From: a virus
IMG/VR virus record: IMGVR_UViG_3300005096_000071
Location: 27,159 to 91,158 of that record
DNA: 64,000 nucleotides
Reading direction: 5' to 3' (one strand)
Shown: one piece after another, positions 18,027 through 52,784 of the stretch
How the letters are laid out: every line of letters begins with the position of its first letter
Numbering within the stretch: position 1 is the stretch's first letter
Notes under the pieces: generated by a model
Seen by the model: only the letters and a program-made list of their open reading frames with translations
Databases searched by the model: none
What the model was told of the DNA's origin: nothing
Translations under genes and position numbers: made by a program

Positions 18027-18035
18027 CGGATTGTG

Positions 18036-37968: not shown

Positions 37969-38046
37969 TTCTGGCGCCAAAGCGCCAGCGATCATGATCT
38001 GGTTGCCATGCCGACCCGCGTGGTGCGACGCTACAGCATGGCAACC
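37963..38046. repeat. two inverted repeats after the endolysin gene
   Basis: First, TCATGAT-t-CTGGCGC-CAAA-GCGCCAG-cg-ATCATGA (37963-37997): a hairpin of 14 pairs with small bulges. Second, GGTTGCCATGC (38001-38011) and GCATGGCAACC (38036-38046): an exact 11-bp inverted repeat with a 24-base loop. Neither has a U-run. They may act in transcription termination, or mark an origin or protein-binding site. Confidence 0.8.
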
Positions 38047-38049
38047 ATG

Positions 38050-38078
38050 TTGACCGCCCCTGCAGCTCGTGTGAAAAT
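38050..38078 (+). promoter_or_regulatory. possible promoter for the holin-like gene
   Basis: TTGACC (38050-38055), 16-17 bp, TGAAAAT, then 11 bases to ATG 38090. It has a close-to-consensus -35. Confidence 0.4.
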
Positions 38079-38089
38079 TGATCGGCCCC

Positions 38090-38398
38090 ATGGACATCTC
38101 CGACAGCTCGACAGTCACGATCAGCCTCGCGGCGCTGGCGTCCACGGTGGCCACTCTCATATCGCTTGTGACGGCATGGGTAACCTTACGAATGACTGTC
38201 AAACACCAGGCGTCGGCGATCGAAAAGCTCGCCCGGGAGACGGACGAGAATCACAAGGAAGCCGACGAGAGGATCCGGAAGATCGAGCGATGGCGCGATC
38301 GTGCTGCGGGAGCAGCACAGGCGTCGAAGCGCGAGGACACCGACCGGATCATGATCCGGACGGCGGAAGCGAAATCAGATCTCTATCCCAAGGGGTAG
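38090..38398 (+). CDS. membrane protein with one TM helix and coiled coil, holin/spanin candidate
   Basis: ATG 38090: MDISDSSTVTISLAALASTVATLIS starts a hydrophobic segment extending through VTAWVTLRMTV, followed by a charged coiled coil (SAIEKLARETDENHKEADERIRKIERWRDR) and a polar end. The arrangement (short N-terminus, one TM helix, long cytoplasmic or periplasmic helix) and the place right after the endolysin fit a lysis-accessory protein. Another hydrophobic run (LLPLFAFALAFATVIASAAAVV) lies downstream in a different frame to 38502 but has no start codon nearby. Confidence 0.5.
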   Translation: MDISDSSTVTISLAALASTVATLISLVTAWVTLRMTVKHQASAIEKLARETDENHKEADERIRKIERWRDRAAGAAQASKREDTDRIMIRTAEAKSDLYPKG

Positions 38399-38495
38399 CG
38401 CTGGCCGGCGGTCTCAGGGCTTGGGACCTCCTCCCGCTGTTTGCGTTCGCGCTCGCGTTTGCGACCGTCATCGCCTCGGCTGCCGCAGTCGTCGG

Positions 38496-39776
38496 TCAGT
38501 AGGTGTAGCCCTCGGTGGGGAGCGTCGGTGGCGTCCGCGTGAAGCAATTGCGGACCGTCGACCACCCCATCATGATCTCGACCGGCGCGCTATCCTTCGA
38601 CTTGTCGAGGATCCACGATGCCTCCTCGACCGCGACGTCATCCCCGCGGTTCGGCCGCCAGATGAAAGCGACATATTCGGCGATGTTCTCGATGTCGCCG
38701 CTCTCTTTGAGCATGAACATATTCGGCCGCGAGTCTTTCCGATCGCGACTCTGGGGGCGAACGATCTGGCTGACGAGGATCAGGTGCATCCCGACCTCGG
38801 CCGCCGCGGTCTTCAGTGTTGCCGCCGCGTCCCCGAGGGCCACACGCCGGTCGCCCTTGGACCGGAAACACTGGAGGTAGTCGACCATCCCCACGCGGCA
38901 CCCGTAGTTGCGTGCGGCGTCCTGGAGGGCGTAGCCGACTCGCTCGGGGCTCCAGCCTGGGCCGTACTCCAGCACAAACGGCAGGTCCTTGAAATAGGAC
39001 TGGTTGGTCTCGTGCCGGAGCTTGTCCAGGTGTGGCCCCCGGAGGTCGTCGTTCGAGATGACAGCGGCGAGGCTCTCGCTCTCGATCAGCTGTTGGATCT
39101 GCCGCTTCACTGGGATCTGTTTGCGGTCCTCCAGGCTGATTAGGCATGTCGGCGTCCCTCGCATCGCCATCCCGGTGAGCAGCTGCACGGCCGCGGTGCT
39201 CTTGCCGTCGTTCGTGTAGCCGCCGAGGACCGTCATGCACTGGGGTTGGTAGCCGCGGAGGGCCTTGTCCATCTCGTCGAACCCCGAGGTGATGGCGGGC
39301 GGCCCCTCGCCGTCGAGGAGCCTTTGCTGTTCCTCGATCCACTCCTGGGAGACCTCGTAGGAGGTCGTCCACCGGACGGACCCACCGAAGGCCAGGAGCT
39401 TACGGCGGCGCTCGGACAGCCACGCCTCGGACTGCTCTCGCCCTTCCTCGGCGCAGATCTCGGCGGCGCCGCGGTACGCGATCCCCATCTCTTTGTTGAC
39501 CCACTGATCGATCAGCGATCGCTCCGCCTCTTTGATCGTCTCGGTCGCGGCGACGATCTCGTATCGTCGCCCGATCGTCCGCAGCTCTTGCGGGGTGAGT
39601 TCGAGCTGCTCAGGGGTGACCTGGGGCCACCCCTCGGAGATGAACCCCCGGACCTTCCCGACGATCTTGCGGCCGCGTGGTGACAGCTGTTCGTCGCCCA
39701 CGAGCGAGTGGACTAGGTACGTCGGGGCTTGGAGGAGGCAGGCCAGCCACAGATCTTCGGCGTCGTCGAGTGTCAT
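38496..39776 (-). CDS. DnaB-like replicative helicase (426 aa)
   Basis: A RecA-type helicase with Walker A GGYTNDGKSTAA near residue 195, ISLEDRK, Walker B VGMVDYLQCF and the sensor-like HLILVSQIVRPQ. It hydrolyses ATP to unwind DNA at the replication fork. The N-terminal part is divergent from bacterial DnaB, as is usual in phages. The stop codon region converges with the lysis genes. It is co-transcribed with 39776 and 40569 genes from the promoter at 40796-40838. Confidence 0.85.
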   Translation of the reverse strand: MTLDDAEDLWLACLLQAPTYLVHSLVGDEQLSPRGRKIVGKVRGFISEGWPQVTPEQLELTPQELRTIGRRYEIVAATETIKEAERSLIDQWVNKEMGIAYRGAAEICAEEGREQSEAWLSERRRKLLAFGGSVRWTTSYEVSQEWIEEQQRLLDGEGPPAITSGFDEMDKALRGYQPQCMTVLGGYTNDGKSTAAVQLLTGMAMRGTPTCLISLEDRKQIPVKRQIQQLIESESLAAVISNDDLRGPHLDKLRHETNQSYFKDLPFVLEYGPGWSPERVGYALQDAARNYGCRVGMVDYLQCFRSKGDRRVALGDAAATLKTAAAEVGMHLILVSQIVRPQSRDRKDSRPNMFMLKESGDIENIAEYVAFIWRPNRGDDVAVEEASWILDKSKDSAPVEIMMGWSTVRNCFTRTPPTLPTEGYTY

Positions 39777-40585
39777 CAGAAAATGAAGTCGGGGATCGGC
39801 TCGGGGACCGGTTCGGGTTTAGGTTCGGCCCGCGGGTCGGGCCTTCGCTCGGGAGGTGGAGTGGGAGGGGGCCCGTCTGGGCCTACGTCGTCGTCTGAGC
39901 TGCAGCCCCAGGTGTCCCGCTCTCTTGGCACGGGGACAACGAAGGGCGGCCCCTCGTCGCCGGTGTAGCCCTCCACGAAGTAGACAGCGGTCCCCGCAGC
40001 AGCGCGGGCGGCAGCGATGGCAGCGTCGGCCCCGTCGCCGAGGTCGTCACGGACGTTCAGCTGTGCGCGCGTCCAGTCCAGCCGGTCGCGCTCGAAGAGT
40101 CCCACCTTCGCGTACGCCGCCATCCAGGGGTGAAAAGCGTCAAGCTTGAGGAGCTTCACGTCCAGGCGGACGATCTCCGCGAGCTGGCGGTCCGTGTCTC
40201 GCTCGGGCTGGAGCATCGGCGGCGCGGCGCGCTCCTCGGGTAGCTCGGCGTGGTCGTCGCACATCAGCGCCACGGCGACACCGCGCCGCCGGGCGCGCCA
40301 CAACCGCCACGCGTCAACCGGGACACTGCGGCGGCAGTCGGGCGCGGAGCAAGGCTTGAGCGCCATCGATCCCAGTGTGGGCTCGGAAAGGTCGCGGCCG
40401 TCGTAGAGCGCCGACCATTCAAGGATCAGGATCCGCCCCATCGAGGCGTAGTACTCCCGCCACCATGCTTCATTGGTCGGCGGGATGACGTAGGGGCTCT
40501 TGCTCTTGGCAGCCGCGAGCATGTTCTGGGCGAACCGGATCATTCTGCGGCTTTGCTCGCCGGTGGTCTTAGCGCGCCGCGTCAC
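39776..40585 (-). CDS. replication-associated hypothetical protein (269 aa)
   Basis: The GTG/ATG at 40585 follows the small first gene. The protein has a zinc-like pair (KPCSAPDCRRSV ... LMCDDHAELPEE), helical segments and a Pro/Asp/Glu-rich C-terminal tail (PEPKPEPVPEPIPDFIF), a style seen in single-strand DNA-binding or helicase-loader proteins whose acidic tip contacts partners. Overlap with the helicase gene supports a replication role (inference). No family recognised. Confidence 0.5.
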   Translation of the reverse strand: MTRRAKTTGEQSRRMIRFAQNMLAAAKSKSPYVIPPTNEAWWREYYASMGRILILEWSALYDGRDLSEPTLGSMALKPCSAPDCRRSVPVDAWRLWRARRRGVAVALMCDDHAELPEERAAPPMLQPERDTDRQLAEIVRLDVKLLKLDAFHPWMAAYAKVGLFERDRLDWTRAQLNVRDDLGDGADAAIAAARAAAGTAVYFVEGYTGDEGPPFVVPVPRERDTWGCSSDDDVGPDGPPPTPPPERRPDPRAEPKPEPVPEPIPDFIF

Positions 40586-40784
40586 GCTTGATCATCTCCA
40601 GAAAGGTGGTGCGCACGAGCGCGTCGACCTCGTCGTGTGTGGTGTCGATGCGGGCCCGGGTCCCGGGGGTCTGGACTACGGCGTAGGCTTTGTTGCCAGG
40701 GTGGCGATCGATCCGGAAGGTGCAGGACGCTTTCCCGAGGTGTAGCGTACCGGTCAGGATCTCAACGGTCGGCGGGTTTGTCAT
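40569..40784 (-). CDS. small hypothetical protein heading the helicase operon (71 aa)
   Basis: ATG 40784 (MTNPPTVEILTGTLHLGKASCTF) lies 11 bases after a TATTCA -10 of a composite promoter. The protein is beta-rich with a helical end (EVDALVRTTFLEMIKRDAAR). It overlaps the next gene by 17 bases. No family recognised. Confidence 0.55.
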   Translation of the reverse strand: MTNPPTVEILTGTLHLGKASCTFRIDRHPGNKAYAVVQTPGTRARIDTTHDEVDALVRTTFLEMIKRDAAR

Positions 40785-40795
40785 TGCGTGCTGAC

Positions 40796-40838
40796 TGAAT
40801 AGCCCAGCTTTTGCGAAAGCGCAACCGTGGGGGTGCAC
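40796..40838 (-). promoter_or_regulatory. composite leftward promoter (helicase operon)
   Basis: Minus strand: GTGCAC (40838-40833), 8 bp, TTGCGC (40824-40819), 17 bp, TATTCA (40801-40796), 11 nt, ATG 40784. Confidence 0.75.
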
Positions 40839-40845
40839 TTTTAGG

Positions 40846-40874
40846 ATGACAACGCTGGCCGTGCGCGCTAGCAT
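40846..40874 (+). promoter_or_regulatory. rightward promoter of the SF2 helicase operon
   Basis: ATGACA (40846-40851), 17 bp, TAGCAT (40869-40874), ten bases to ATG 40885. It is back-to-back with the composite promoter and shares its GTGCAC box, as at 10.3 kb. Confidence 0.55.
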
Positions 40875-40884
40875 GTGCGGACTC

Positions 40885-42564
40885 ATGGAGCCCCGCCCCT
40901 ACCAAGTAGAATGCAAGGCCAAGGTCTACGAGTCGCTGCGCAAGGTCGATCGGACCCTCGCCGTGCTCGCGACCGGTCTTGGAAAGACTATCATTTTCTC
41001 CACCGTAGCAGAGGAGGCGGCCCGCAAGGGTAAGCGCGTCCTGATCCTCGCACACCGCGAGGAGCTGATCGCGCAGGCCTCCGATAAGTTCCACCGCGTC
41101 TCCGGGATGACGGCGGCGATCGAGATGGCGAACCGTCGCGAGGGAATGCAGCCCGTCGGGATGGAGCTGTTCGGCGACGCGCAAGCGCCGGTAGGCTCCA
41201 ACTATCCACCCGTTGTGGTGTCGTCGGTGCAGACGATGGTCCGGCGCCTCGACAAGTTCCCGGCGGACCACTTCGATCTCGTGGTCGTCGACGAGGCGCA
41301 CCACGCGGCCGCAAAAACGTACACGACGATCCTCGACCACTACAACGCGAAGGTGCTCGGGGTGACGGCGACGCCGGACCGCGGCGACAAAAAAGCGCTA
41401 GGCCAGGTGTTCGAGGACGTGGCGTTCCGGTACGACATCCGCGACGCCATCGACGATGGCTGGCTCGTCCCGATTCGGCAGCAGTTCGTCCAAGCGAAGG
41501 ATCTCAACCTCACGCGCTGCCGCACCACCGCCGGCGATCTAAACGCCGGCGATCTGGAGGCGGCAATGACTGAGATGAAGGTGCTCGAACAGGTCGCCGG
41601 CCCGACGGTCGACCTCGCAGGCGAGCGTCCGGTGCTGCTGTTCACCGTCACTGTTGCGCATGCCCACGCGCTCGCCGAAGTCATCCGCGGCCATACGAAG
41701 CAGGAGGTGCGAGCCCTCGACGGCACCACGCACCGCGACGAACGGCGCGAGACCGTCGAGGCATTCCGCAACGGCGAGGTCCGCTACCTGATCAACTGTG
41801 CGCTGTTCACCGAGGGGTTCGACGCGCCTGCGACCGCCGTCGTCGGGATGGCTCGGCCCACCAAGTCCCGAGGTCTCTACGAACAGATGATCGGACGCGG
41901 CACCCGTACCCTCGACGGCACACTGGACGGGCTCAACGGTGCGTCCGGTGAGGTACGCCGCGCGGCGATCGAAAAGAGCGCGAAGTCGAATCTGCTCGTC
42001 CTCGACTTCGTTGGCAACTCCGGCAAGCACTCGCTGGTGTCTATGCTCGATGTGCTTGGCGGTGAGGCGTCCGCACCAGAGAAGTCGATCGCAAAGGGGA
42101 TGCTGGAGAGCGGTGAGGTTGAGGACGTGGCGGAAGCCATTCGTCGAGCCCGCGCGCAGATCGATGCGATGGAGCTGGCCAGCGTCCGGAAGAAAGCGCG
42201 ACGGAACTACCAGACCGTGCAGGTCGACCCGTTCACTGCGCTGGGCATCGGTCCTCGTGGCGAGGACATGTTGGGCCGCGACGCGAGCGACAAACAGCGC
42301 CAGATGTTGGAGCGTGCTGGCATCAACCCGGCGGGTCTCGATTCTGCGCAAGCGTCGAAGCTGATCGCGTCTCTCATCTCCAGGCGCAGCGCAAACCTAG
42401 CGACGTACAAACAGGTCAACCGGCTGATCAAGGGTGGACTAGAACGCGACCAGGCCTCGGGGTTGACGTTCACAAACGCGTCGGCCCTCATCACGAAACT
42501 GGCCGCGAATCGTTGGAAGGCGCCGTCTAGTTGGGATAGCTGGGTCGCAGAGGTGAGCCGGTGA
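40885..42564 (+). CDS. SF2 DEAD/DEAH-box helicase (559 aa)
   Basis: ATG 40885 (MEPRPYQVECKAKVYESL) is favoured by the promoter position. Motif I is ATGLGKT (residues 29-35), then RVLILAHREEL (Ia), VVVDEAHHAA (II, DEAH), GVTATPDRGD (III), LLFTVTVAHAHAL (IV), INCALFTEGFDAP (V) and YEQMIGRGTR (VI). This is a complete UvsW/SSL2-like helicase acting on branched DNA or RNA. The C-terminal ~150 residues are helical and Ala/Arg-rich. It probably supports replication or recombination. Confidence 0.9.
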   Translation: MEPRPYQVECKAKVYESLRKVDRTLAVLATGLGKTIIFSTVAEEAARKGKRVLILAHREELIAQASDKFHRVSGMTAAIEMANRREGMQPVGMELFGDAQAPVGSNYPPVVVSSVQTMVRRLDKFPADHFDLVVVDEAHHAAAKTYTTILDHYNAKVLGVTATPDRGDKKALGQVFEDVAFRYDIRDAIDDGWLVPIRQQFVQAKDLNLTRCRTTAGDLNAGDLEAAMTEMKVLEQVAGPTVDLAGERPVLLFTVTVAHAHALAEVIRGHTKQEVRALDGTTHRDERRETVEAFRNGEVRYLINCALFTEGFDAPATAVVGMARPTKSRGLYEQMIGRGTRTLDGTLDGLNGASGEVRRAAIEKSAKSNLLVLDFVGNSGKHSLVSMLDVLGGEASAPEKSIAKGMLESGEVEDVAEAIRRARAQIDAMELASVRKKARRNYQTVQVDPFTALGIGPRGEDMLGRDASDKQRQMLERAGINPAGLDSAQASKLIASLISRRSANLATYKQVNRLIKGGLERDQASGLTFTNASALITKLAANRWKAPSSWDSWVAEVSR

Positions 42565-43334
42565 AGAGAGTCCGCGGCTTCGAGGTCGCGAACGACATCC
42601 CCGAGACTGAGAGAGCCGCGCGACGTCTCGGGGATCGGGGGTTCGGGAAGATGGTCGAACAGCTCCGCCGCGATCACGGCAAGTCCAGAATCGTTTTTTC
42701 CGCGCTCGCCCACTGTGACGCGGCCGCCCTCGCTGCGATTGAGGACGGCAGGCAACGAGCAACGGTCGAGTGGCCCCGCATTGTGGCCGCGGTCACCGGC
42801 GCCGACTACCTGCAGGTGTGGGACGTTTGGTCGCGCGGTGCGCCAAACGGCGAGGTGCGGATGTCGGTCGAGGAGGCACGGGCGCAGATCCAGCGTTTGC
42901 TCGGCGAGGGCGTCGATTGCCCTTGCTGTGGCCGGCTGTGCAAAGAGGCGCGGCGGTCAGTCTCGAAGCCGATGGTGCGGTTCGCCCGCTGGCTCGTGCG
43001 CAGTTATTCGGGGGCCCCAGTCGACGCGCGTGCGTTCGTGAAACAGACAAATCAGCACGGCGGCGACTACGCCAAGATCGTCTATTGGGGACTTGGCCGT
43101 CGCGAGCCCGGCGGCGATCCGATGTGGTCCCCGACCACCCTTGGATACAAGTGGGTCCGCGGCGAGGCGAAGGTCCAGCGGGTCGCGGTCGTCTGGAGAA
43201 ACGACGTGCTACGACACGAGGGGAAGCTGGTCACACCAGACGACATCGAACCAGAGACCCGTCCCGAGCGGACGGGCGTACGCCAATCTCTCCCAGGCAT
43301 ATCGTGCAACGCCGGCGAGGTGTCTGATGTGTGA
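42561..43334 (+). CDS. hypothetical protein with Cys cluster (257 aa)
   Basis: The GTG overlaps the helicase stop (GTGA). It contains CPCCGRLCKEARR near residue 120, a possible zinc site, and PMVRFARWLVRSYSGAP and WGLGRREPGGDPMWSPTTLGYKWV. It is coupled to the helicase, so a replication or regulation role is likely. No family recognised. Confidence 0.55.
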   Translation: MKRVRGFEVANDIPETERAARRLGDRGFGKMVEQLRRDHGKSRIVFSALAHCDAAALAAIEDGRQRATVEWPRIVAAVTGADYLQVWDVWSRGAPNGEVRMSVEEARAQIQRLLGEGVDCPCCGRLCKEARRSVSKPMVRFARWLVRSYSGAPVDARAFVKQTNQHGGDYAKIVYWGLGRREPGGDPMWSPTTLGYKWVRGEAKVQRVAVVWRNDVLRHEGKLVTPDDIEPETRPERTGVRQSLPGISCNAGEVSDV

Positions 43335-43346
43335 TGACGGCAGTGG

Positions 43347-43550
43347 TTGCGAGCGTGTGGCCGTGTGGCCGGGGCCTGGAAGCACTGTCTTCGGTGCGCG
43401 CACGTCATCTCGCTGCTACAGGAACGGATGGAATCCTACACCACAGACATACTAGACCTCGACTGTGGGGAGACTTGGCACAACGCGCCGCCCGGCGTGG
43501 CCGCCCGGCGTGGCCGCCCTGGCGTTCTGGATCCCATCCGACGAGATTGA
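43347..43550 (+). pseudogene. short Cys-rich phage protein, start or frame doubtful
   Basis: From TTG 43347 the frame reads CGRVAGAWKHCLRCAHVI, then LLQERMESYTTDILDLD-CGETWHNAPPG, a pattern of small phage zinc proteins. A second frame from ATG 43327 (MCDDGSGCERVAVW) runs out at 43455. The two look like halves of one gene separated by an indel in the GT-rich region 43345-43370. The true product cannot be fixed. Confidence 0.35.
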
Positions 43551-43586
43551 TCCGGCCGTTGCTGGACGCGCTATCATGGCCGACGA

Positions 43587-43841
43587 ATGAATAACACGAT
43601 CTTGATCGCGGCGTTGGCCGCACTGTCCTGCGGATGCTTGGCGAAGCGCCTGCAGATTCCCGCAGAGGACCACTACGTCCAAACGAGAGTCATCGCCGAG
43701 AAGTGCCGCACGCAGGGCTACGACGACTCGCCCTGCAGCGGGCAGCTCCAGGAAGACCTCGACGCGATGGTGAAAGGTGCCCAGGCAATCGACGCCGTCG
43801 CCAAGGGAAAAAAGCCCGAGTCGGAGGTGAGCGATGGATGA
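43587..43841 (+). CDS. small lipoprotein, o-spanin-like
   Basis: ATG 43587 (MNNTILIAALAALSCGCLAK) gives a typical signal peptide with a cysteine lipobox at Cys15 or Cys17, followed by ~65 polar residues with a helical end. A TATCAT hexamer lies nine bases upstream. Small lipoproteins of this size can be outer-membrane spanins, though it is far from the endolysin. The next gene overlaps it by eight bases. Confidence 0.55.
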   Translation: MNNTILIAALAALSCGCLAKRLQIPAEDHYVQTRVIAEKCRTQGYDDSPCSGQLQEDLDAMVKGAQAIDAVAKGKKPESEVSDG

Positions 43842-44190
43842 GGCGTTCGGCCGCGAACGCGTCCTCGACGTCCTCGCCAACCTAGGCGGAGGCCTCCGCC
43901 GCACCGGTCATGGGTGGCTGACCGAACACGGCGACGATCTTGCCGAACTCGGCAAGATCGAGGCGGAGGCGATCCTATCTGCGCTGAAGCGCGGCGACAC
44001 TGCCGGCGCCAAGTTCCAGTTGGCGCTCCATATGAAGCCCGAGGAGTGGCGAGCCTACCGGGACGGTACCGTGGAGCAACTCCGAGGAATCGCGATCCAG
44101 CGCGCGCAACTCCTGGAGGCTCTCGAAGATCTCGGCCGTCGGAGCGCCGAGGCAATCGGCAAGGCCGCCGGGGCCGCACTCGGTCTCTGA
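43834..44190 (+). CDS. hypothetical helical protein (118 aa)
   Basis: ATG 43834. It is almost all helix: MDEAFGRERVLDVLANLGGG, GDDLAELGKIEAEAILSALK, AQLLEALEDLGRRSAEAIG, with Ala-rich end. Probably soluble. It is followed by a 330-bp non-coding region. No family recognised. Confidence 0.55.
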   Translation: MDEAFGRERVLDVLANLGGGLRRTGHGWLTEHGDDLAELGKIEAEAILSALKRGDTAGAKFQLALHMKPEEWRAYRDGTVEQLRGIAIQRAQLLEALEDLGRRSAEAIGKAAGAALGL

Positions 44191-44231
44191 CTTGACCTGG
44201 GGGCTCTGATCCCCCACTGTGACGACCGCAC

Positions 44232-44270
44232 CAAAAACGAAGAGGCCCAGGGGAGTGAACCCTGGGCCTC
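44232..44270 (-). terminator. leftward rho-independent terminator T2
   Basis: Minus strand: GAGGCCCAGGG, loop of seven, CCCTGGGCCTC (11 exact pairs), followed by TTCGTTTTTGG. It ends the candidate RNA2. Confidence 0.75.
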
Positions 44271-44307
44271 CGATGCAATGACCACGAACCTCCCGCCAAG
44301 AAGGCTC
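44233..44307 (-). ncRNA. candidate small RNA 2
   Basis: A leftward unit: promoter TTGCTT (44342-44337), 17 bp, TACTTT (44319-44314), predicted 5' end near 44307, a hairpin GAGCCTTC-TTGGCG-GGAGGTTC, a short linker, and the 11-pair terminator with a U-run. About 75 nt. No ribosome binding site or credible ORF on this strand. It lies between two rightward genes, so it is not a leader of either. Confidence 0.55.
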
Positions 44308-44313
44308 AATGCC

Positions 44314-44342
44314 AAAGTACACGATCGCGCGAAGCGAAGCAA
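44314..44342 (-). promoter_or_regulatory. promoter of candidate small RNA 2
   Basis: TTGCTT, 17 bp, TACTTT on the minus strand. Confidence 0.55.
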
Positions 44343-44404
44343 TCGACAACCTCAACATGTTGTGGCCGGAGCCCGACATGACCCCAACGGTGGTGGTCCG
44401 GCAT

Positions 44405-44436
44405 AAAAAAAGCCGACCCCCGGGAGGGGGCCGACT
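44405..44436 (-). terminator. leftward rho-independent terminator T1
   Basis: Minus strand: AGTCGGCCCCC, loop TCCC, GGGGGTCGGCT (11 pairs with two G-U or mismatch-tolerant pairs), followed by seven T. It is the strongest terminator in the window. Confidence 0.85.
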
Positions 44437-44500
44437 GAATCCGTTGTGCTCGGCAAGAGCCCAAACGACCAGGCCCACAGTTCGCGAGCCCTGCTTGCTC
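44405..44500 (-). ncRNA. candidate small RNA 1
   Basis: A leftward unit: promoter TTGTCG (44535-44530), 17 bp, TACAGT (44512-44507), predicted 5' end near 44500, an early hairpin GCGAGC-AAGCAGG-GCTCGC, a ~45-nt single-stranded middle, then the GC-rich terminator and T7. About 96 nt. It is antisense to nothing clearly coding. Together with RNA2 it forms a tandem pair of similar architecture. Confidence 0.6.
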
Positions 44501-44506
44501 GCAGAC

Positions 44507-44535
44507 ACTGTAGCGAAAAGCGTGCCAGTCGACAA
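44507..44535 (-). promoter_or_regulatory. promoter of candidate small RNA 1
   Basis: TTGTCG, 17 bp, TACAGT on the minus strand. It overlaps the start region of the rightward gene at 44522, so the two transcription starts may interfere. Confidence 0.6.
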
Positions 44536-46108
44536 GCTACTGCGCCGGATCGCCCCGGTGGAGATGGCACTCGGCGGTCCGATCGCATGGCAAGCGGTGC
44601 CGCTGCAGTGGCGCGCCGACGCTGACGTGGCGGGCCCAGACTGCGGCACCGTGGCCGACTTGCTCACCAGGTTGTCCGGCCGGTGGTGGCGCTGGGAATG
44701 GAGCAGCACGCCGCGCAGGCTCTGGGAGGATGTGATCCGAGCGAAGTGGCCGGGCCGCATCGGGCGGGCTCGGTTCCTCGCAGCATGGAAGCACCTAGAC
44801 CGCCTCGGGCTCATCGCCCGGAAGGCCACGGCGTGGGTGATCGAGGCATGCCGACCGGAGGACAAAGCAGCCCGGCTCGCCGAAGAGTCCCAAGGTCTCG
44901 CGGCGTTGCCCACCCCTGGGCAGAGCCCTAGTAAGGAACGCGCACGCGAGATCGGTAAACCTCTAATCTACGCAACGCCACATACAGGGCACCCGAGCAG
45001 TTTCCTGCGTTCTGTAGGTTACGTAAGCACTGTCAGTAATCCCAACTTCCTCACTGCGAACCAAGATCGCGCACACGCACACGCGTTGCAGACACTATGC
45101 CAGGAGAACGATATGGGCGGAAATAACCCGACACCTCAGACGAACGACGCGGCATCAGGAGCCCCCGAGACCTCCGACGGCCAGACGCCCAGCCCGATCC
45201 CTCCGTGGGAGTCTGGGAAGACGGGAGCCGGCCCCCACGCAAAAATGTGGCCCTACCGTTGGAATGTCCTCCGGCAGCGGCTCGAAAAGGAATGGGCGCC
45301 GCAATCGATGCGGTACGGTCGCGGCCGGCGCCAAGCTCAGCGCGCCCAACGATTCGGCACGGCGCTCTATATGGCGCTGCTACCAAAGGGCGCGGACAAG
45401 CTGCAGAGCGCGAGCGACTACGCGAGCGACGAGGTCTGGGCGAAGGCGCTCCGATCGGTGTTCAACCGAGAGCACCCGCCCAACAGTCCGCTGGAGTTCA
45501 TGGCGGCGGTTATCTCCGACTCCCTAGACGACACCGACCAGGCAAAGAAGCGCGAGAAGGCGAACGCCAAGCGCTACAAGCGGGTGGTGGGCGGCTCGAT
45601 GGGGGTTGCGTCCGCAGATCAAAAAGTGCAACCTCGCGGAGGCATAAATGCCAGAGTCCCGCACAAATCGACGCAACCGCGCCAAGGGGTACACGCAGAA
45701 CAAGCGGGTGCCGGACCTGGGGGACAGCATGCCCAGCCAGACCTGTTTGACGGGGATCGTCGGGACCGTTCCGAAGCTGTACGACCTGATAGACGCGAGC
45801 CTTCAACAGCTCGACTGGAATTGGGTAACCCTCGCCAAGGAGATCCCGTGCAGTCGCCAGCACCTGGAGCGACTAGTGAAGCGGCCGACCATCCCGTCGG
45901 ATATATTCCTGCGCATCTGCGCGGTCCTGGGGATCAACCCCGAGGACGTGATCACAGCAACAAAGCTCGTCGAGTAGGACCATCCCATGACCGAACCCCA
46001 GCCCAACGAAGATCAGAACATCACCAGCGACCAGCGGCTGACGGCGATCCGTCTGCTGACGATGCGAATCGAGCGCAGGAACCAAGCGAAGAAAGCCGCG
46101 ACCGCTGA
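44522..46108 (+). CDS. winged-helix-like hypothetical protein; 3' end uncertain
   Basis: GTG 44522 avoids the upstream stretch that encodes the small-RNA region. Residues ~15-110 look like a DNA-binding wing (TVADLLTRLSGRWWRWEW, LWEDVIRAKWPGRIGRARFLAAWKHLDRLGLIARK). A long Ser/Pro/Asn-rich middle precedes a helical basic domain (WPYRWNVLRQRLEKEWAPQ). From about 45650 the frame becomes Arg/Pro-rich while two other genes (45648, 45987) overlap it in other frames, so the real end is likely near 45650. A role in replication initiation is possible. Confidence 0.5.
   Translation: MPVDKLLRRIAPVEMALGGPIAWQAVPLQWRADADVAGPDCGTVADLLTRLSGRWWRWEWSSTPRRLWEDVIRAKWPGRIGRARFLAAWKHLDRLGLIARKATAWVIEACRPEDKAARLAEESQGLAALPTPGQSPSKERAREIGKPLIYATPHTGHPSSFLRSVGYVSTVSNPNFLTANQDRAHAHALQTLCQENDMGGNNPTPQTNDAASGAPETSDGQTPSPIPPWESGKTGAGPHAKMWPYRWNVLRQRLEKEWAPQSMRYGRGRRQAQRAQRFGTALYMALLPKGADKLQSASDYASDEVWAKALRSVFNREHPPNSPLEFMAAVISDSLDDTDQAKKREKANAKRYKRVVGGSMGVASADQKVQPRGGINARVPHKSTQPRQGVHAEQAGAGPGGQHAQPDLFDGDRRDRSEAVRPDRREPSTARLELGNPRQGDPVQSPAPGATSEAADHPVGYIPAHLRGPGDQPRGRDHSNKARRVGPSHDRTPAQRRSEHHQRPAADGDPSADDANRAQEPSEESRDR
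45648..45977 (+). CDS. XRE-family helix-turn-helix regulator (109 aa)
   Basis: ATG 45648 after GCGGAGGCATAA, a good ribosome binding site. Residues ~50-108 (LDASLQQLDWNWVTLAKEIPCSRQHLERLVKRPTIPSDIFLRICAVLGINPEDV) form an XRE/Cro-type HTH in which CSRQHLERLVKRP is the recognition region. The first ~35 residues are basic and may be unstructured, or the true start may be ATG 45730. It is a candidate repressor or activator for the recurring promoter boxes (inference). Confidence 0.7.
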   Translation: MPESRTNRRNRAKGYTQNKRVPDLGDSMPSQTCLTGIVGTVPKLYDLIDASLQQLDWNWVTLAKEIPCSRQHLERLVKRPTIPSDIFLRICAVLGINPEDVITATKLVE

Positions 46109-46595
46109 GTGGCGCGAAGTACTCGACACCAAAACGCGAGCGCTGAACGAGCTGATCGAAGAGGAGACTCCGATCGACGACGAGGAGGCTTGCGTCGCGC
46201 GCCTCGATGAGATCCGCCTCGCGCTCAAAAACCGCAGGCAGGCCGAGACCGATAAGAAGTCAGCGATCGGAAAGATCAACGCGGAGATCGAGCAAGCCGA
46301 GAGCGCGCGCTACGAGATGATCATGACGGAGGGGGCGACCCAGTCCCACCTCAACTTCGCCGAGGATGGAGCGGCCGAGCCATGGCTGACGAGCGAGGCC
46401 GCCCGCGAGGTAGGGCTGGCGCTCAACGATGTCGCGAAGGATTCGGGCGGAGACCTCGCGCCCGAGATGGACGCACTCCGGCGCCGAGTCGAATCGATGG
46501 GGCTGGGAAAAATCCGGCTCGTCGACGAGGACGATGGCGAGGAGGATGACGAGGAAGAGAGCGAGGACAAGAGCGAGGCCGGACCCGACTTCTGA
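45987..46595 (+). CDS. coiled-coil protein before the recombination genes (202 aa)
   Basis: ATG 45987. A TAGGAC hexamer lies six bases upstream and also resembles a ribosome binding site. Long helical coiled coil (LLTMRIERRNQAKKAATAEW, LDEIRLALKNRRQAETDKKSAIG) and an acidic tail (EDDGEEDDEEESEDKSEAG). Its position before the exonuclease and RecT fits host-nuclease inhibitors or similar helper proteins, but no signature proves it. A strong terminator follows. Confidence 0.55.
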   Translation: MTEPQPNEDQNITSDQRLTAIRLLTMRIERRNQAKKAATAEWREVLDTKTRALNELIEEETPIDDEEACVARLDEIRLALKNRRQAETDKKSAIGKINAEIEQAESARYEMIMTEGATQSHLNFAEDGAAEPWLTSEAAREVGLALNDVAKDSGGDLAPEMDALRRRVESMGLGKIRLVDEDDGEEDDEEESEDKSEAGPDF

Positions 46596-46618
46596 ACGAA
46601 GCCCCCAGGGTTCACGGG

Positions 46619-46646
46619 AGGGGGACCATGCGGTCCCCCTCTTTTT
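46619..46646 (+). terminator. rho-independent terminator
   Basis: AGGGGGACC, loop ATGC, GGTCCCCCT (nine exact pairs), then CTTTTTG. It closes the transcript ending at 46595 and isolates the recombination operon. Confidence 0.85.
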
Positions 46647-46647
46647 G

Positions 46648-46690
46648 TTGCACCTGCGGGGTTGCACTTTCGAAAAGTGCACGGTAGCTT
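46648..46690 (+). promoter_or_regulatory. composite rightward promoter (recombination operon)
   Basis: TTGCAC (46648-46653), 8 bp, TTGCAC (46662-46667), 17 bp, TAGCTT (46685-46690). The spacing matches the leftward copies. Here a ~45-nt leader with AAGGAACGAG precedes GTG 46744, so the mRNA is leadered. Confidence 0.7.
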
Positions 46691-46743
46691 GTGCGTGGCG
46701 CCTCGGCGTCCCTTCCCCTTCACCTCCAAGGAACGAGACCAAC

Positions 46744-47736
46744 GTGCAAGAACACGACCCCTACGGGGGCATGACCCGGAACGAGTGGATCGAATCGCGC
46801 AAGCGAGGGATCGGCGGTTCTGAAGCGGCGGCGCTGTTCGGCGTCCATCCCTGGACGTCTCCGTTCGCGCTGTACCAAGAGAAGATCGGCGCGGTCAACG
46901 ACGACCGGGACTCGCCGGCGATGCGCTGGGGCCGACGGCTGGAGCCTGTGGTCCGCGACGCATACGCCGAGGAGGTTGGCCGAGTCGTCACCGTCGGCGT
47001 GACCAATCGGGCCCACCCGCGGATCCCGTTCATGCTCGCCAACACGGACGGAACGATCGGGCCGATCCCGGACTTCGATGGGCCCGGCGTGTACGAGGGG
47101 AAGATGACCCTCTCTCCCCACAATAAGGCGCAGTGGGACGTGGGCGTGCCGCTGTTCTACCAGGTCCAAACCCAACACTATATGGCGGTGCTCGGCCTGG
47201 AGTGGGCGGGCGTGGCGTGCTTCATCCCTGGCGTGTACGACCCGCTGCTGTACTGCGACATCCCGCGGAATCAGAGATTCATCGACGCACTAGAGGAGCG
47301 CGAGCACCGGTTCTGGCACGACCACATCCTCGCGGGCGTGGCTCCCGATCCTGATGGGTCGATGGCAACGACGAACGCGCTGAAGCTACTCCACCCGAAA
47401 GACAACGGCGAGATCATCACGCTCCCCGAGGAGTCGGCGATGTGGGCCCGACGGGTCGAGAGATCGAACGCCGCGATGAAACGCCTCAAGGGCGTGAAGG
47501 ATGAGTTCTCGAACAAGCTCCGCGCCGCCATGGGGCCGGCGACTTACGGCATCCTCCCGGACTCAACCGGGTACAGCTACAAGCACCAGAGCCGCGCCGC
47601 CTTCTCAGTGAAGGCCAACGAGACGCGAGTGCTCCGACGGTCGAGCGCGAAGGCGATCGTCAAGGCACAGAAGGCACTCAACGAAGCGGCAGACGCAGCC
47701 CTCGCAGACGCGGGCCTCGATACGATTGGACTCTGA
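46744..47736 (+). CDS. YqaJ-type (lambda exonuclease-like) recombination nuclease (330 aa)
   Basis: GTG 46744. The motif SRKRGIGGSEAAALFGVHPWTSPFALYQEK near residues 17-48, RWGRRLEPVVRDAYAEE, LANTDGTIG-PIPDFDGPGVYEGKM (the D-x-E-x-K catalytic cluster: D, E and K) and FYQVQTQHYMAVLGLEW mark the YqaJ viral recombinase family. It resects dsDNA ends 5'-3' to expose a 3' strand for the RecT protein next door. Confidence 0.9.
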   Translation: MQEHDPYGGMTRNEWIESRKRGIGGSEAAALFGVHPWTSPFALYQEKIGAVNDDRDSPAMRWGRRLEPVVRDAYAEEVGRVVTVGVTNRAHPRIPFMLANTDGTIGPIPDFDGPGVYEGKMTLSPHNKAQWDVGVPLFYQVQTQHYMAVLGLEWAGVACFIPGVYDPLLYCDIPRNQRFIDALEEREHRFWHDHILAGVAPDPDGSMATTNALKLLHPKDNGEIITLPEESAMWARRVERSNAAMKRLKGVKDEFSNKLRAAMGPATYGILPDSTGYSYKHQSRAAFSVKANETRVLRRSSAKAIVKAQKALNEAADAALADAGLDTIGL

Positions 47737-47740
47737 GACG

Positions 47741-48685
47741 ATGGCAAGTAAATCCAAAAGCAGCACCACCGAACTACCACCCATGCCCCAGGAGGATGTA
47801 GTGTTGGAAAACTCAGAGGACCGGACCAAGATCGTCGTCGTCAAAACGATGCTGGAGCGTTCGAAGGATGAGGTCTCGCGCGCGCTCTCGGGACAGATGG
47901 ACCCGGAGCGGTTCCTCCGCGTCGCGCTGACGACCTACCAGACGGGCGAGGGGCTCACGGAAACCGACCCGATCACGTTCATCGGGTGCATCGTCCAGGC
48001 GGCCCAGCTCGGGCTCAGCACGGACCCGTTGCTCGGCGAGTGCTACCTGTTGCCCCGCTGGAACAAACACCTCAAGCGCAAGGTCTGCACCCTGCAGATC
48101 GGCTACCAGGGGCTGATGAAGCGGTGCCGGCGGTCGCCGTTGCTGGACAACATCGACGCCGACGTAGTCCACGCGAACGACGAGTTCGAGGTGATCAAGG
48201 GGGTCCCCGACTCCATCATCCGGCACAAGCCATGCCTCCGGGGTGACCCGGGGCCCATCGTGGCGAGCTACGCGATCGCTCGATTCAAAACCGGGTCCTA
48301 CGTGTTCCGGGTTTGCATGGTGTGGGAGATCGAGAAGGCCCGACTCCGAAGCGACGCCGGCAAGAAAGGGTGGGGGCCGTGGAAAACCGACTATGACGCC
48401 ATGGCCATGAAGACGGCGATCCGCCGGCTGACCAAGGTCCTCCCGACGGACGACGTCACTCGCGCGCAGATCACGAACGAGGAGCGCGACGAATCAGTGA
48501 TCGACGCGGCGTTCGCTGAGCGCATAATCCAGGCCGGGCCGCCGCGCTCGGACAACCCGCCGCAACAGTCAGTACCGGCGACCACCGACGACCTCGCGAC
48601 CCAGCACGAAAACGAAAGGAGAGACGAAGATGTCCCACCCCCGACAGATCCACCGAACGAAGATCGATCCGAGGACCCGACCTGA
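47741..48685 (+). CDS. recT: RecT-family single-strand annealing protein (314 aa)
   Basis: ATG 47741, five bases after the exonuclease stop. It contains RFLRVALTTYQTGEGLTETDPITFIGCIVQAAQLGLSTDPLLGECYLLPRWN, LQIGYQGLMKRCRRSPL and KKGWGPWKTDYDAMAMKTAIRRLTKVLP, the RecT core, with a charged Pro-rich tail. It pairs with the YqaJ nuclease for annealing-type recombination and repair. The next gene starts inside its 3' end. Confidence 0.95.
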   Translation: MASKSKSSTTELPPMPQEDVVLENSEDRTKIVVVKTMLERSKDEVSRALSGQMDPERFLRVALTTYQTGEGLTETDPITFIGCIVQAAQLGLSTDPLLGECYLLPRWNKHLKRKVCTLQIGYQGLMKRCRRSPLLDNIDADVVHANDEFEVIKGVPDSIIRHKPCLRGDPGPIVASYAIARFKTGSYVFRVCMVWEIEKARLRSDAGKKGWGPWKTDYDAMAMKTAIRRLTKVLPTDDVTRAQITNEERDESVIDAAFAERIIQAGPPRSDNPPQQSVPATTDDLATQHENERRDEDVPPPTDPPNEDRSEDPT

Positions 48686-49130
48686 TCTGTGGCTGAGGCG
48701 CCCAGGCCGGTACGTGTTCGAGGTCCGCGATTTCTTCCGCCGCCCAGTGTCTTCAGGCCTCAACGCCATCCACGCGAGCTGCTACGTCCTCGGGGAGATG
48801 GACGGGCCAGACATCACGTCGAGCCCGTCGCGCGGCCTAAAGGTGTGCCGCCCGTTCGTCATCGAAGGCAAGGGGCTGTCGTGGACGGTCCGGTTCCTGG
48901 CGGTATGCGGGAACGCCGAGGCCTTGGTCGATCTCGAATCGGACAACGAAGTGAGCGGGGCGATCGCGTTCCACCCGTTCGTCGGGATGGTGGTCGAGCC
49001 GGACCAAACCGCGGGCAAGCCACACCGCGCGATTCAGATCGCATCGTTCGAACACCTAGATCCTGCGTTCGAGGTCGGGTCGGGCCCGTGGAACGGCGAG
49101 AGCATCTGCAGGGATGACCCACGGGTTTGA
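48630..49130 (+). CDS. hypothetical protein next to recT (166 aa)
   Basis: ATG 48630 with AAGGAGAGACGAAG (excellent ribosome binding site), overlapping the recT end by 56 bases. A beta-rich protein: RPGRYVFEVRDFFRRPVSS, LSWTVRFLAVCGNAEALVDLE, GAIAFHPFVGMVVEPDQ. Single-strand DNA-binding proteins usually occupy this position; sequence alone does not show an OB-fold. Confidence 0.55.
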   Translation: MSHPRQIHRTKIDPRTRPDLWLRRPGRYVFEVRDFFRRPVSSGLNAIHASCYVLGEMDGPDITSSPSRGLKVCRPFVIEGKGLSWTVRFLAVCGNAEALVDLESDNEVSGAIAFHPFVGMVVEPDQTAGKPHRAIQIASFEHLDPAFEVGSGPWNGESICRDDPRV

Positions 49131-49147
49131 TAGCGGACGATTTCACG

Positions 49148-50344
49148 ATGGCAGAACGACTCCACATCGACGACAGATGGCTAGCGCAGACCTGGGACTA
49201 CGGAGACATGGCAAAGGGATACAAAATCATGACCGCGGGCGCGCTGACGTCGATTCAGTTTGACGACGGGTATCGGGTGGAGGTCGACAGCCGCCACCCC
49301 GACCAACTCGCGGACGCGCTGGGCAGCATCTCACGCCACATTGTGGAGAAAACAAACGCTCTGGCACACGTCAAGGAAGAATTGAAGCGAGAGTGCGCCG
49401 CCCGCTCGGAGTTGAACGTCGTGTCGCACAAACTAAAGCGCGAGCACTGCAGCGAGAAGGCAGTACTGGAGGCGGGGCAGGCGCAACTCCGCAACGAGCT
49501 GGGCGAGGGCCAGCGCCGACTCGGTGAGGCGGAGGGGAAACTCCGCGCGCTCGACGAGATGCAGAACCTGCACCTGACGATGAGCGGACGGATGATCCGC
49601 ACGACTCTCATTGAGCACGGTTGGACGCTCATCGGCGGCTCCGACCGTTTCCGTGCACCGATGGAGTTGTGCCCCGCGGATCGTCCGCGAACCGACTACG
49701 ACGTGAAGGATGCGATCAACATCCACATGACCGCGCTCGGATCCAAACTCGCGCCACACGTCCAAATCCTACCTTTAGCACGACAGATCTACAGCGACCG
49801 GAGTCCCGCGGCACAGCTGCGAGTAATCAAAGAGAGCAGAGCAATGAACGACACACCTGACGACACCGACACACCTGACGACACCGAATATACACGAGGC
49901 CTCCCTACAGCCAAAGCACCCGCGCCAACACTAGAGCCGCCTGGCACGATGAAACAGATAGGGAACAACTTCGCAGCCGGCGCATTGTTGGCCGCGCAGC
50001 TCGGGGCGAGCCGGACAATGACCGCGCTTACAATCGAGGCGCTCGAAAGTGCCGGCATGCCTCGGGAGATGCTGGAGCACCCGCTGGTCAAAGCGTTGAT
50101 CCAGCTCGGCACACCGGCCTTGCTCCGCGTCGCGGCGCCACACCTCCCTGGAGTGGGCGACTCGATGTCGAAGGTCCTGGACCACGTCCAGATCGGGGCG
50201 ACGGCCAGCGTTGGCGGCGAGGTGATCGGGGTTGTCGGTGAGAAGATCCTCCCGATCCTGAAGGCCTTGAAAGAGCAGGGGGCCAAGTTCTCTATGCTCG
50301 AAGGCAAGGCCAGCGGGAACGTCGAACAGCTCGATCCAAAGTGA
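49148..50344 (+). CDS. hypothetical protein, coiled-coil N-half and helical C-half (398 aa)
   Basis: ATG 49148 (MAERLHIDDRWLAQTW). Residues ~65-140 form a coiled coil (SRHIVEKTNALAHVKEELKRE, EAGQAQLRNELGEGQRRLGEAEG). After a duplicated DTPDDTDTPDDTE linker comes a hydrophobic helical region (NNFAAGALLAAQLGASRTMTALTIEAL). The linker begins right after an internal MND (49844) that could be a second start. No family recognised. Confidence 0.5.
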   Translation: MAERLHIDDRWLAQTWDYGDMAKGYKIMTAGALTSIQFDDGYRVEVDSRHPDQLADALGSISRHIVEKTNALAHVKEELKRECAARSELNVVSHKLKREHCSEKAVLEAGQAQLRNELGEGQRRLGEAEGKLRALDEMQNLHLTMSGRMIRTTLIEHGWTLIGGSDRFRAPMELCPADRPRTDYDVKDAINIHMTALGSKLAPHVQILPLARQIYSDRSPAAQLRVIKESRAMNDTPDDTDTPDDTEYTRGLPTAKAPAPTLEPPGTMKQIGNNFAAGALLAAQLGASRTMTALTIEALESAGMPREMLEHPLVKALIQLGTPALLRVAAPHLPGVGDSMSKVLDHVQIGATASVGGEVIGVVGEKILPILKALKEQGAKFSMLEGKASGNVEQLDPK

Positions 50345-50868
50345 CCGAGTATCTCATCTGCTCTGTCGACCCGGGCAAACTCTGCGGCGTCGCCGTACGG
50401 GTCCCGGGTCGACCACCCACGCTTCACCGCGTGAGGGGTAACCGCCTTGCGGATGTCGCCCGGATCGTCATGTCGCTGCGGGCGTTGGCGGATGAGAAGG
50501 GCGTGAGGCCGGTCGTCGTGATCGAGAATCAGTTTGGCGCGATGCGGAGCGGCAGGGACGGCAAGCCGTCGATCAATCTGAAGGGCCTCGCGACGTTATA
50601 CCGCCGCCGCCACGAGTGGGAGATCCTGTGCCAGCTGTACGGCATCGAGGTCGAGACGGTCTGGCCCTCGACGTGGCAGACGCAACTGAAGCAAGTCCCG
50701 CCGCACAACCCGGACGGGAGCAAACGATCGACCAAGGCGAAGTCGCTCCACCTCGCGGCTCGGAAGTGGCCGACGATCTTCGACTGGACAGAAGACACCG
50801 CGGACGCGGCGCTTATCGGGGAGTGGTATCGAATGGAGCTGATGCGAAAAGGCGAGCTACTGTTTTGA
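50341..50868 (+). CDS. RuvC-like Holliday junction resolvase
   Basis: GTG 50341 (GTGA overlap). RNase H-fold resolvase pattern: LICSVDPGKLCGVAV (Asp10), VRPVVVIENQFGA (Glu), LATLYRRRHEWEILCQLYGIEVETVWPSTWQ, and the C-terminal acidic pair EDTADAALIGEWYRME. It resolves branched DNA for packaging and recombination. It is coupled to the preceding and following genes by short overlaps. Confidence 0.8.
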   Translation: MTEYLICSVDPGKLCGVAVRVPGRPPTLHRVRGNRLADVARIVMSLRALADEKGVRPVVVIENQFGAMRSGRDGKPSINLKGLATLYRRRHEWEILCQLYGIEVETVWPSTWQTQLKQVPPHNPDGSKRSTKAKSLHLAARKWPTIFDWTEDTADAALIGEWYRMELMRKGELLF

Positions 50869-51161
50869 CGTTGCACGATCCGACCATCGGCCCGGCCCAG
50901 GTCAGCAAGCCCGTACACAAAGGGCTGAAGCTGCAGGCGGGTGCGTCGCTCGAAATACGGATCACGCAACCGTGCGACTTCACGGTCGAGATACGCGCGA
51001 TCGTTCCGATCCGAAAGGACGGGAGGATCCGGCTATACCCGCAGGTGCTGGACACCCGCACGGGGCTCAAAGATGAGACCGAGCTATGGGTGACAATCGC
51101 GGAGCTGGCACAGTCGCGGCTGTGCGACGCGGCCGACCGCGCGGAGATCGAAGGCGGATGA
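50865..51161 (+). CDS. hypothetical protein (98 aa), TTG start
   Basis: TTG 50865 overlaps the resolvase stop (TTGA), the same coupling used by neighbours with ATG/GTG. It starts LTLHDPTIGPAQVSKP and contains beta strands FTVEIRAIVPIRKDGRIRLYP. The C-terminus is helical. No family recognised; likely part of the recombination operon. Confidence 0.5.
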   Translation: MTLHDPTIGPAQVSKPVHKGLKLQAGASLEIRITQPCDFTVEIRAIVPIRKDGRIRLYPQVLDTRTGLKDETELWVTIAELAQSRLCDAADRAEIEGG

Positions 51162-51604
51162 AACGAGACCTCGAAAAGCAAAGAGCCTGGCAACGCCGAT
51201 CCAAACCGCTGAAGCGGTCAGGGTTTAGGGGCGGGCGCAAGCCGATCAAAAAGTCAAACCCCGAGCGACGGCGCCGCGCGTACGATCGCAACTTCGGAGA
51301 GCGAGCCGACCACATCCGCGCCATGCCATGCCTGGTCGCCGCCGCCTGGTCGCCGCCGCAGTGGACCGAGGCCGGGGCGCCCCGATGTTTCGGAGACGTC
51401 CAGGCGTGCCACGCTCGCGCTCGCGGCATGGGCGGAGTCAAGGGTGACCGGCGAACACTCGTGCCGCTCTGCGCAGCGCACCACCGAGAGTCCGGCGAGC
51501 TGAACACGACGGAGCGCGCCGAGTTCGAGGCCCGATATCAGATCGACCTCACCGCGAAGGCGGCGGCGCTGGCGATCGTGTTCGACGGTCTGGGTGTCCC
51601 ATGA
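51158..51604 (+). CDS. HNH-type endonuclease-like phage protein (148 aa)
   Basis: ATG 51158 (ATGA overlap). RSKPLKRSGFRGGRKPIKKS, then DHIRAMPCLVAAA, DVQACHARARGMGGVKGDRRTLVPLCAAHHRESGE follow the order of a common phage HNH family (basic N-terminus, Cys, then H-A-x(n)-G-M-G, and C-A-A-H-H). Only part of the usual Cys pairs is present. It may be a nuclease for packaging or recombination. Confidence 0.7.
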   Translation: MKRDLEKQRAWQRRSKPLKRSGFRGGRKPIKKSNPERRRRAYDRNFGERADHIRAMPCLVAAAWSPPQWTEAGAPRCFGDVQACHARARGMGGVKGDRRTLVPLCAAHHRESGELNTTERAEFEARYQIDLTAKAAALAIVFDGLGVP

Positions 51605-52008
51605 GGTCGCTGTATCGCTACGTCGACCAGGGCGGCGTACTCATCCCCACCCTGGTGTCCGACGCGGCGAACGACGGCCGGGATAACGTCGTGCGGTTCA
51701 TCGACCACCTCCCAGGGTGGTGGTGGTCGGGGTGGGTCGCGTGTGAGCACTGCGGCGGCCTGTACGTGGGTGTTCTCAAGCGGGACAGCAAGGGCGAGCG
51801 GCCCCCGGCGACGCTGCCGTGCGCGCTCTGCCCCCTCGCTGCGGTCCCTGAAGCTCACTGGACGGCGGCGGCAGCGGTCAAGTGCACCGAGTGCGGCCAC
51901 GACTGGATCGAGGTGATCATTCGCACCATGGAGATCTTGCCAACGAAGCTCCAGTGCCCTGCGTGCCAGAGCCCCACAGATCAGCTAGAACCCTGGCCCC
52001 CGGACTAG
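51601..52008 (+). CDS. zinc-ribbon protein (135 aa)
   Basis: ATG 51601 (ATGA overlap). Four CxxC pairs: CEHCGG, CALCPL, CTECGH, CPACQS: two zinc ribbons. Trp-rich between them (DHLPGWWWSGWVA). It is probably a small nucleic-acid or protein-binding factor; no family recognised. Confidence 0.6.
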   Translation: MRSLYRYVDQGGVLIPTLVSDAANDGRDNVVRFIDHLPGWWWSGWVACEHCGGLYVGVLKRDSKGERPPATLPCALCPLAAVPEAHWTAAAAVKCTECGHDWIEVIIRTMEILPTKLQCPACQSPTDQLEPWPPD

Positions 52009-52015
52009 ACTCAGG

Positions 52016-52780
52016 ATGGACGACCGCAAAGCCTTACGATTCGCCCTCGTGCTCGTCGCTGTGATCGGCGCGTTTCAGTTCTACGCTAGCTTCCTGCAGG
52101 CGGCGAGCCCCGAGGGGTTCCCGCGCATGGGGTTCCCGCGCGAGCCCATCGCTCGCACCGCCGCGCTTGAGCGCGTCGACGAGGTCTACCGCGCGATCGA
52201 TGCGGCGACCGATGACCCGGCCCTGCGCGACGAGCTGCGCCGCCGCTGCCGGACTGAGTCGTGGTGCAACTGGTACGGCGTGACGGACGTCCACGCCGGA
52301 GACGCAAGCCTCGGGCGCAAACGATGGAGGAAAGCCGTCGCGCGGGGGTTGCTCGATCCCGAAGCGTGCGAGGTGCACGAGTTGGGCGAGACTCGCGAGG
52401 AGTGGGTGTGGTGGTCCACCGTCGGAGCGTTTGGGACAGTCTCGTCCTACGTCATCCGCCACCGTGGGGAGTGCGCGGACCCGCACGACATGGTCGACCC
52501 GTTCGTCGCGGCCGACCTCGCGGTCGCACACGCTGGCGTCCTCTGCCGCCGCTACAAGGCCTGCACCTGTCCGAAGCGCGCCCGGTGGTGGGCCGGCCCC
52601 GGACTCTGGGACAGGCGCTCACCGCTCGACAGGATGACCCGCACCGTTCGCCAGTGCGGCGAACAGCCAGAGAGCGACGTGGCCGTAGCATACGTCATGA
52701 CGCCGTGGTGGTACTTCAACGAAGGCCTAAAAGGATGCACCCGTTTGGTTGCAATGATTCGGGAGATCGCGTTAGCCTGA
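52016..52780 (+). CDS. signal-anchored protein with possible transglycosylase-like region (254 aa)
   Basis: ATG 52016. The first 30 residues form an uncleaved or cleaved hydrophobic leader (RFALVLVAVIGAFQFYASFLQAA). The region AVARGLLDPEACEVHELGETREE-WVWWSTVGAFGTVSSYVIRHR and a distal VAADLAVAHAGVLCRRYKACTC faintly recall phage transglycosylases, but the catalytic Glu pattern is not certain. Several paired Cys residues suggest an exported fold. Tentative. Confidence 0.45.
   Translation: MDDRKALRFALVLVAVIGAFQFYASFLQAASPEGFPRMGFPREPIARTAALERVDEVYRAIDAATDDPALRDELRRRCRTESWCNWYGVTDVHAGDASLGRKRWRKAVARGLLDPEACEVHELGETREEWVWWSTVGAFGTVSSYVIRHRGECADPHDMVDPFVAADLAVAHAGVLCRRYKACTCPKRARWWAGPGLWDRRSPLDRMTRTVRQCGEQPESDVAVAYVMTPWWYFNEGLKGCTRLVAMIREIALA
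52735..52778 (+). promoter_or_regulatory. composite rightward promoter before GTG 52785
   Basis: ATGCAC (52735-52740), 8 bp, TTGCAA (52749-52754), 18 bp, T-AGCCT (52773-52778), six bases, GTG 52785. This copy combines the box/-35 spacing of the composite set with the six-base start spacing of the second set. Confidence 0.6.
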
Positions 52781-52784
52781 CCGG

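Follow-up and report, generated by a model that had tools for sequence, protein, structure and literature searches.

A short interval between rightward genes of an uncultivated phage holds two leftward intrinsic terminators, T1 and T2, each preceded by about one small-RNA length by a promoter-like site (P1 and P2, respectively). We judge the chances to be roughly even that this locus produces one or perhaps two short antisense RNAs running leftward within a rightward operon, as its sequence features suggest, the RNA running from P1 to T1 (RNA1) being likelier than that running from P2 to T2 (RNA2). In the case of RNA1 at least, a short leftward RNA is the simplest interpretation, because the terminators exceed chance expectation and a promoter-like site lies ∼95 nt before the end of T1.

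The window analyzed here is the 64-kb stretch of DNA spanning positions 27159–91158 of a 91,158-base virus record. The phage is tailed and has baseplate wedge proteins, and its baseplate is of the contractile-tail type; tail, baseplate, terminase, portal, and endolysin families are all present in the record. The locus is surrounded by an early-type block of rightward genes, which includes the following family matches:

40846, rightward: helicase
46729, rightward: RecE-like exonuclease
47726, rightward: RecT-like protein

A temperate phage and a role of the locus in lysogeny are not favored, because tyrosine integrase and resolvase families have no match in the record, which may be incomplete. 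Two further observations concern other parts of the window. The G+C content drops to 55.8% at 18001–20000, over leftward ParB-like and PAPS-reductase-like genes, and this stretch is possibly a recent acquisition. Rfam places a second tRNA on the minus strand at 6338–6417, beside tRNA-Leu(aag), that is absent from the ARAGORN list.

Leftward terminators and promoter-like sites

Hairpin scans and folding identified both terminators:

44405–44436, minus strand: T1, a leftward intrinsic terminator with an 11-pair stem (44436–44411) and a T-run
44234–44271, minus strand: T2, a leftward intrinsic terminator with a 12-pair stem (44271–44241) and TCGTTTTT

Under a strict rule that requires 8 or more stem pairs and no fewer than 6 T in 8 bases, the 64-kb window contains four terminators, compared to 0.17 per window in dinucleotide shuffles. 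T1 and T2 are leftward, and the remaining two are rightward and located at gene ends. T1 and T2 thus oppose the rightward early operon (ORFs at 43834, 44309, and 44522), and no other strong terminators opposed to the surrounding genes were seen in the window. T1 is clearly built to fold on the minus strand, with a folding energy of −21.6 kcal/mol there versus −14.0 kcal/mol on the plus strand, where two of its G-U pairs become A-C mismatches; its T-run is a T7 when the last stem base is included. T2 folds about equally well on both strands (−26.1 kcal/mol on the plus strand; z = −6.0). The T-runs of both terminators are on the minus side only. The preliminary description, which proposed two minus-strand hairpins of 11 pairs with a T-run, was thus accurate for their place and strand and for the stem of T1, while T2 has one pair more. 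Because T1 and T2 exceed chance, T1 is optimized for the minus strand, and the T-runs are confined to that side, leftward transcription is stopped here or formerly was.

The two promoter-like sites consist of the following elements:

44530–44535, minus strand: −35-like element of P1, TTGTCG, read from the sequence; 17-bp spacer, P1 ranking 15 of 64,000 by weighted score
44507–44512, minus strand: −10-like element of P1, TACAGT (weighted score; local shuffle P = 0.013)
44337–44342, minus strand: −35-like element of P2, TTGCTT, read from the sequence; P2 has 6/12 consensus matches overall
44314–44319, minus strand: −10-like element of P2, TACTTT (weighted score; local shuffle P = 0.207)

The 17-bp spacers noted previously are real for both sites. 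P1 carries 8 of 12 consensus bases and P2 carries 6, with ranks of 15 and 30, respectively, among 64,000 minus-strand positions under a weighted sigma-70 matrix whose frequencies come from general knowledge, are unfitted to the phage, and may not represent the host's sigma factor. With the same matrix applied window-wide, a random 110-nt zone equals P1 with P = 0.025 and P2 with P = 0.047, and shuffles of the local sequence give P = 0.013 for P1 and P = 0.207 for P2. On the basis of these ranks and probabilities, P1 is supported as a fair promoter candidate and P2 appears to be a weak one. Of the two "good promoters" claimed at the outset, the description is fair for P1 only (8/12, P = 0.013–0.025 over both tests); P2 (6/12, P = 0.047–0.21 over both tests) does not reach significance in local shuffles.

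A promoter scan requiring at least 9 of 12 consensus matches returned none in 42–47 kb. The 64-kb window has nine minus-strand occurrences of the core pattern TTG-N20-TANNNT (TTGN3-17-TAN3T), and two of these are P1 and P2, each just upstream of a leftward terminator. The plus strand has a single match to this pattern at 17-bp spacing in 64 kb, and because this sole match sits in the interval that separates a rightward terminator from the RecE gene, the motif appears to be informative in this phage. The stretch at 46616–46690 (plus strand) holds a strong rightward terminator followed directly by TTGCAC-17-TAGCTT, ahead of the RecE-RecT genes. The figures for P1 and P2 are somewhat flattering, because the pattern was picked after the sites had been seen and is partly post hoc.

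Rightward frames and the putative RNAs

The rightward frames around the hairpins are as follows:

43834–44190, plus strand: 118-aa gene with no assigned function, upstream of T2; coding score of 0.433 per codon, GGAGGT before its ATG
44309–44407, plus strand: small coding stretch of 33 codons, MPKYTIARSEAIDNLNMLWPEPDMTPTVVVRHK; 0.452 log-odds per codon, AGAAGG just before its ATG
44522–45640, plus strand: gene with no assigned function, its leader under putative RNA1; coding score from ∼44500–44530 to ∼45640

A codon log-odds score trained on 22 of the window's genes, followed along the 44309 frame, reveals a short coding stretch between the hairpins, in a frame that stays open past T1 into the following gene. 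The score of 44309–44407 is gene-like, since none of 10,000 out-of-frame gene windows reaches 0.45. Past the A7 run and T1 (44438–44521), the same frame scores −0.336, a value reached by no in-frame window; the coding signal thus ends at the A7-hairpin and resumes at ∼44500–44530. The A7 run (44405–44411, plus strand) directly precedes the GC-rich hairpin, and with one A fewer the frame would stop at TGA 44436–44438; it may be a homopolymer error of the assembly, a slippage site, or simple chance. The interval originally described as a gap between rightward genes is therefore non-coding only in part, as 44309–44407 codes on the plus strand and has a Shine-Dalgarno-like site. As a result, P2 falls within the opening codons of the small ORF, and P1 lies about where the 44522 gene begins.

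The possible start of the 44522 gene, a GTG, has no clear Shine-Dalgarno sequence. Its protein has no homologue in phages or plasmids and no family match, and the structure model of its N-terminal part (pLDDT 50.9) is too poor for a fold search. The 44309/44522 frame is open to 46108 and its coding signal stops near 45640; an HTH_26 gene (∼45729–45977, plus strand) runs in another frame within the 45640–46108 open stretch, possibly reflecting a frameshift or a long overlap.

The positions of the promoter-like sites and terminators predict two transcripts:

44404–44500, minus strand: putative RNA1, ∼97 nt (P1 and T1), antisense to the leader of the 44522 gene and to where the small coding stretch ends
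44234–44308, minus strand: putative RNA2, ∼75 nt (P2 and T2), antisense to the 44309 ORF at its leader and Shine-Dalgarno-like site

RNA1 would start near 44500 from P1, ∼22 bases before GTG 44522, and stop at T1. RNA2 would start near 44308 from P2, one base before ATG 44309, cover the ribosome site, and stop at T2, although T2 may alternatively serve mainly to catch read-through from T1. The implied sizes of ∼97 and 75 nt agree with the ∼96 and 75 nt first proposed. Each RNA would be a perfect complement of the next rightward frame's leader (RNA2 to that of 44309 and RNA1 to that of 44522), and pairing with the leader could block translation or lead to double-strand cleavage, lowering the output of the short ORF and the following gene. 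The sequence shows the terminators with their strand and the intervening coding stretch, and it supports P1; we infer P2, the RNAs, their pairing with the leaders, and its effect.

The structure of the putative RNAs resides largely in their terminators. RNA1 folds with z = −1.97, which is owed to the terminator (z = −0.18 for the 5′ part without it), and RNA2 with z = −3.35, again mostly from the terminator, its 5′ part (z = −1.43) being barely beyond shuffles. The 5′ hairpins attributed to both RNAs are thus no better than chance. Because the 5′ parts fold near shuffle level, the architecture said to be common to the two units comes down to a promoter-like site plus a terminator and does not extend to a structured RNA. 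All five minus-strand ORFs tested have coding scores below zero, and a leftward peptide gene was rejected on this basis. The claim that the minus strand lacks an ORF thus holds, although RNA2 contains GGGAGG.

Only tRNAs in the window reach the Rfam gathering threshold, with no small-RNA family at the locus. A permissive search returned suhB/mmgR (RF00519; 20.6 bits) and Hrs13 (RF02631; 16.4 bits) around T1; these matches are centered on the terminator and fall well short of the respective gathering scores (41 and 52), and the resemblance is probably due to chance. The locus occurs in one place only in the record, and the words it has in common with the rest of the window are at most 12 nt long. 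When the 5′ parts of RNA1 and RNA2 were tested against other gene-start regions of the phage, pairing was no better than that of shuffled RNA, and hence nothing points to a trans target in the phage itself; the suggestion that the single-stranded part of RNA1 might find such targets gains no support from off-locus pairing. A cis-antisense role is more natural, because the RNAs would perfectly complement the rightward transcript.

Relatives of the locus and alternative readings

No relative with the locus was found across phage, plasmid, viral, and bacterial-genome collections. The DNA of the locus has no match in phage records, and the T1 hairpin pattern has none in viral contigs. Searches of viral contigs with the 44309 ORF, the 43834 ORF, RecE, and the 42561 protein yielded no related loci; in bacterial genomes the 44309 ORF found no related locus and RecE two distant loci only. 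RecT and helicase searches led to nine loci, all without the flanking genes or similar hairpins. A TerL search identified three relatives, the nearest found by terminase and ∼43% identical in that protein, that have the structural genes in common with this phage and lack the early module (38–52.8 kb) at the corresponding place. In relative G001 (L008), the homologues of the endolysin (L008:5911–6828) and of the 52785 gene (L008:4763–5338) are ∼570 bases apart, and the ∼15-kb early block (37970–52785) is therefore an insertion or a relocated module.

These data bear on three other accounts of the hairpins. T1 and T2 may be insulator terminators only, halting spurious or antisense leftward transcription from further right before it collides with the rightward operon, with no dedicated small-RNA promoter. 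The solid terminators, the weakness of P2, and the tandem arrangement, which suits a fail-safe, agree with this account, but P1 beats chance, and the lack of any other strong gene-opposed terminator in the window indicates that this genome does not generally insulate its genes in this way; we give it an appreciable but minority probability. It is quite unlikely, in our estimate, that the hairpins act in the rightward mRNA instead, as leader structures, as processing sites, or, for T1 with the A7 run, as a signal for slippage or frameshifting where the small ORF ends. T2 does fold equally well on the plus strand (−26.1 kcal/mol), and the 44309 coding signal ends at the A7-hairpin, where one A less would bring the stop at 44436–44438 into frame. 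However, T1 is a third less stable on the plus strand (−14.0 versus −21.6 kcal/mol), and both T-runs are on the minus side, where a plus-strand role would have no need of them.

The pair could also be terminators left behind by a leftward gene or moron that was later lost or replaced by the small rightward ORF. The region has been shuffled, as indicated by the absence of the 38–52.8 kb module at this place in the relatives found, yet there is no leftward coding remnant and T1 is still strand-optimized (G-U and not A-C), leaving this history very unlikely. The reading we prefer remains that of one, perhaps two, leftward antisense RNAs. If they exist, a phage lineage without close cultured relatives would gain a candidate for cis-antisense control. 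They would be acting at an early-operon gene without a known homologue, and would extend leader-targeted antisense control beyond lambda-like phages and plasmids. If only the terminators are real, the locus would be a modest case of a phage operon insulated against antisense transcription. Its compact size would suit reporter testing.

Comparison with known antisense systems

A 2025 review covers phage antisense RNAs from lambda, P22, phiR1-37, PAK_P4, BTP1, and cyanophages (PMC12197685), and the initial statement that such RNAs are rarely described outside a few models was overstated given the several phages listed there. In P22, the sar RNA blocks translation initiation of the neighboring antirepressor gene ant (PMC12197685). 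The putative RNAs would likewise be phage antisense RNAs that might act against translation initiation of a neighboring gene, but an ant-like gene was not recognized at the locus.

In plasmid R1, the leader covered by CopA contains the tap frame upstream of repA, with RepA synthesis being coupled to Tap (PMC5717011). The likeness lies in an antisense RNA over an intergenic leader that contains a short ORF before the main gene; in our phage, the short leader ORF ahead of the 44522 gene has a coding signal and an AGAAGG site, and its own leader lies under putative RNA2. In R1 there is a single antisense RNA and the main gene encodes a known replication initiator, whereas here there are two putative RNAs and a downstream gene without a family match. 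That two stacked antisense RNAs, one per frame, control both the leader peptide and the early gene in a dosage control of the R1 CopA type is unlikely.

In lambda, the short antisense RNA OOP runs leftward, is ended by tO, and overlaps cII (PMC5869508). Like the putative RNAs, OOP (pO to tO) is a short leftward RNA in a rightward early operon, ends at an intrinsic terminator, and is antisense to the operon mRNA (PMC5869508; PMC12197685). The two cases differ in that OOP overlaps the 3′ end of cII, whereas the RNAs proposed here would cover leaders and start regions, and in that lambda has one unit and our locus two, with no sequence relation found; the neighbors of the locus have no match to cII-like activator or O-like initiator families, and their proteins yielded no informative relatives. 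By analogy, then, the layout resembles that of lambda OOP or R1 CopA, a known kind of phage control.
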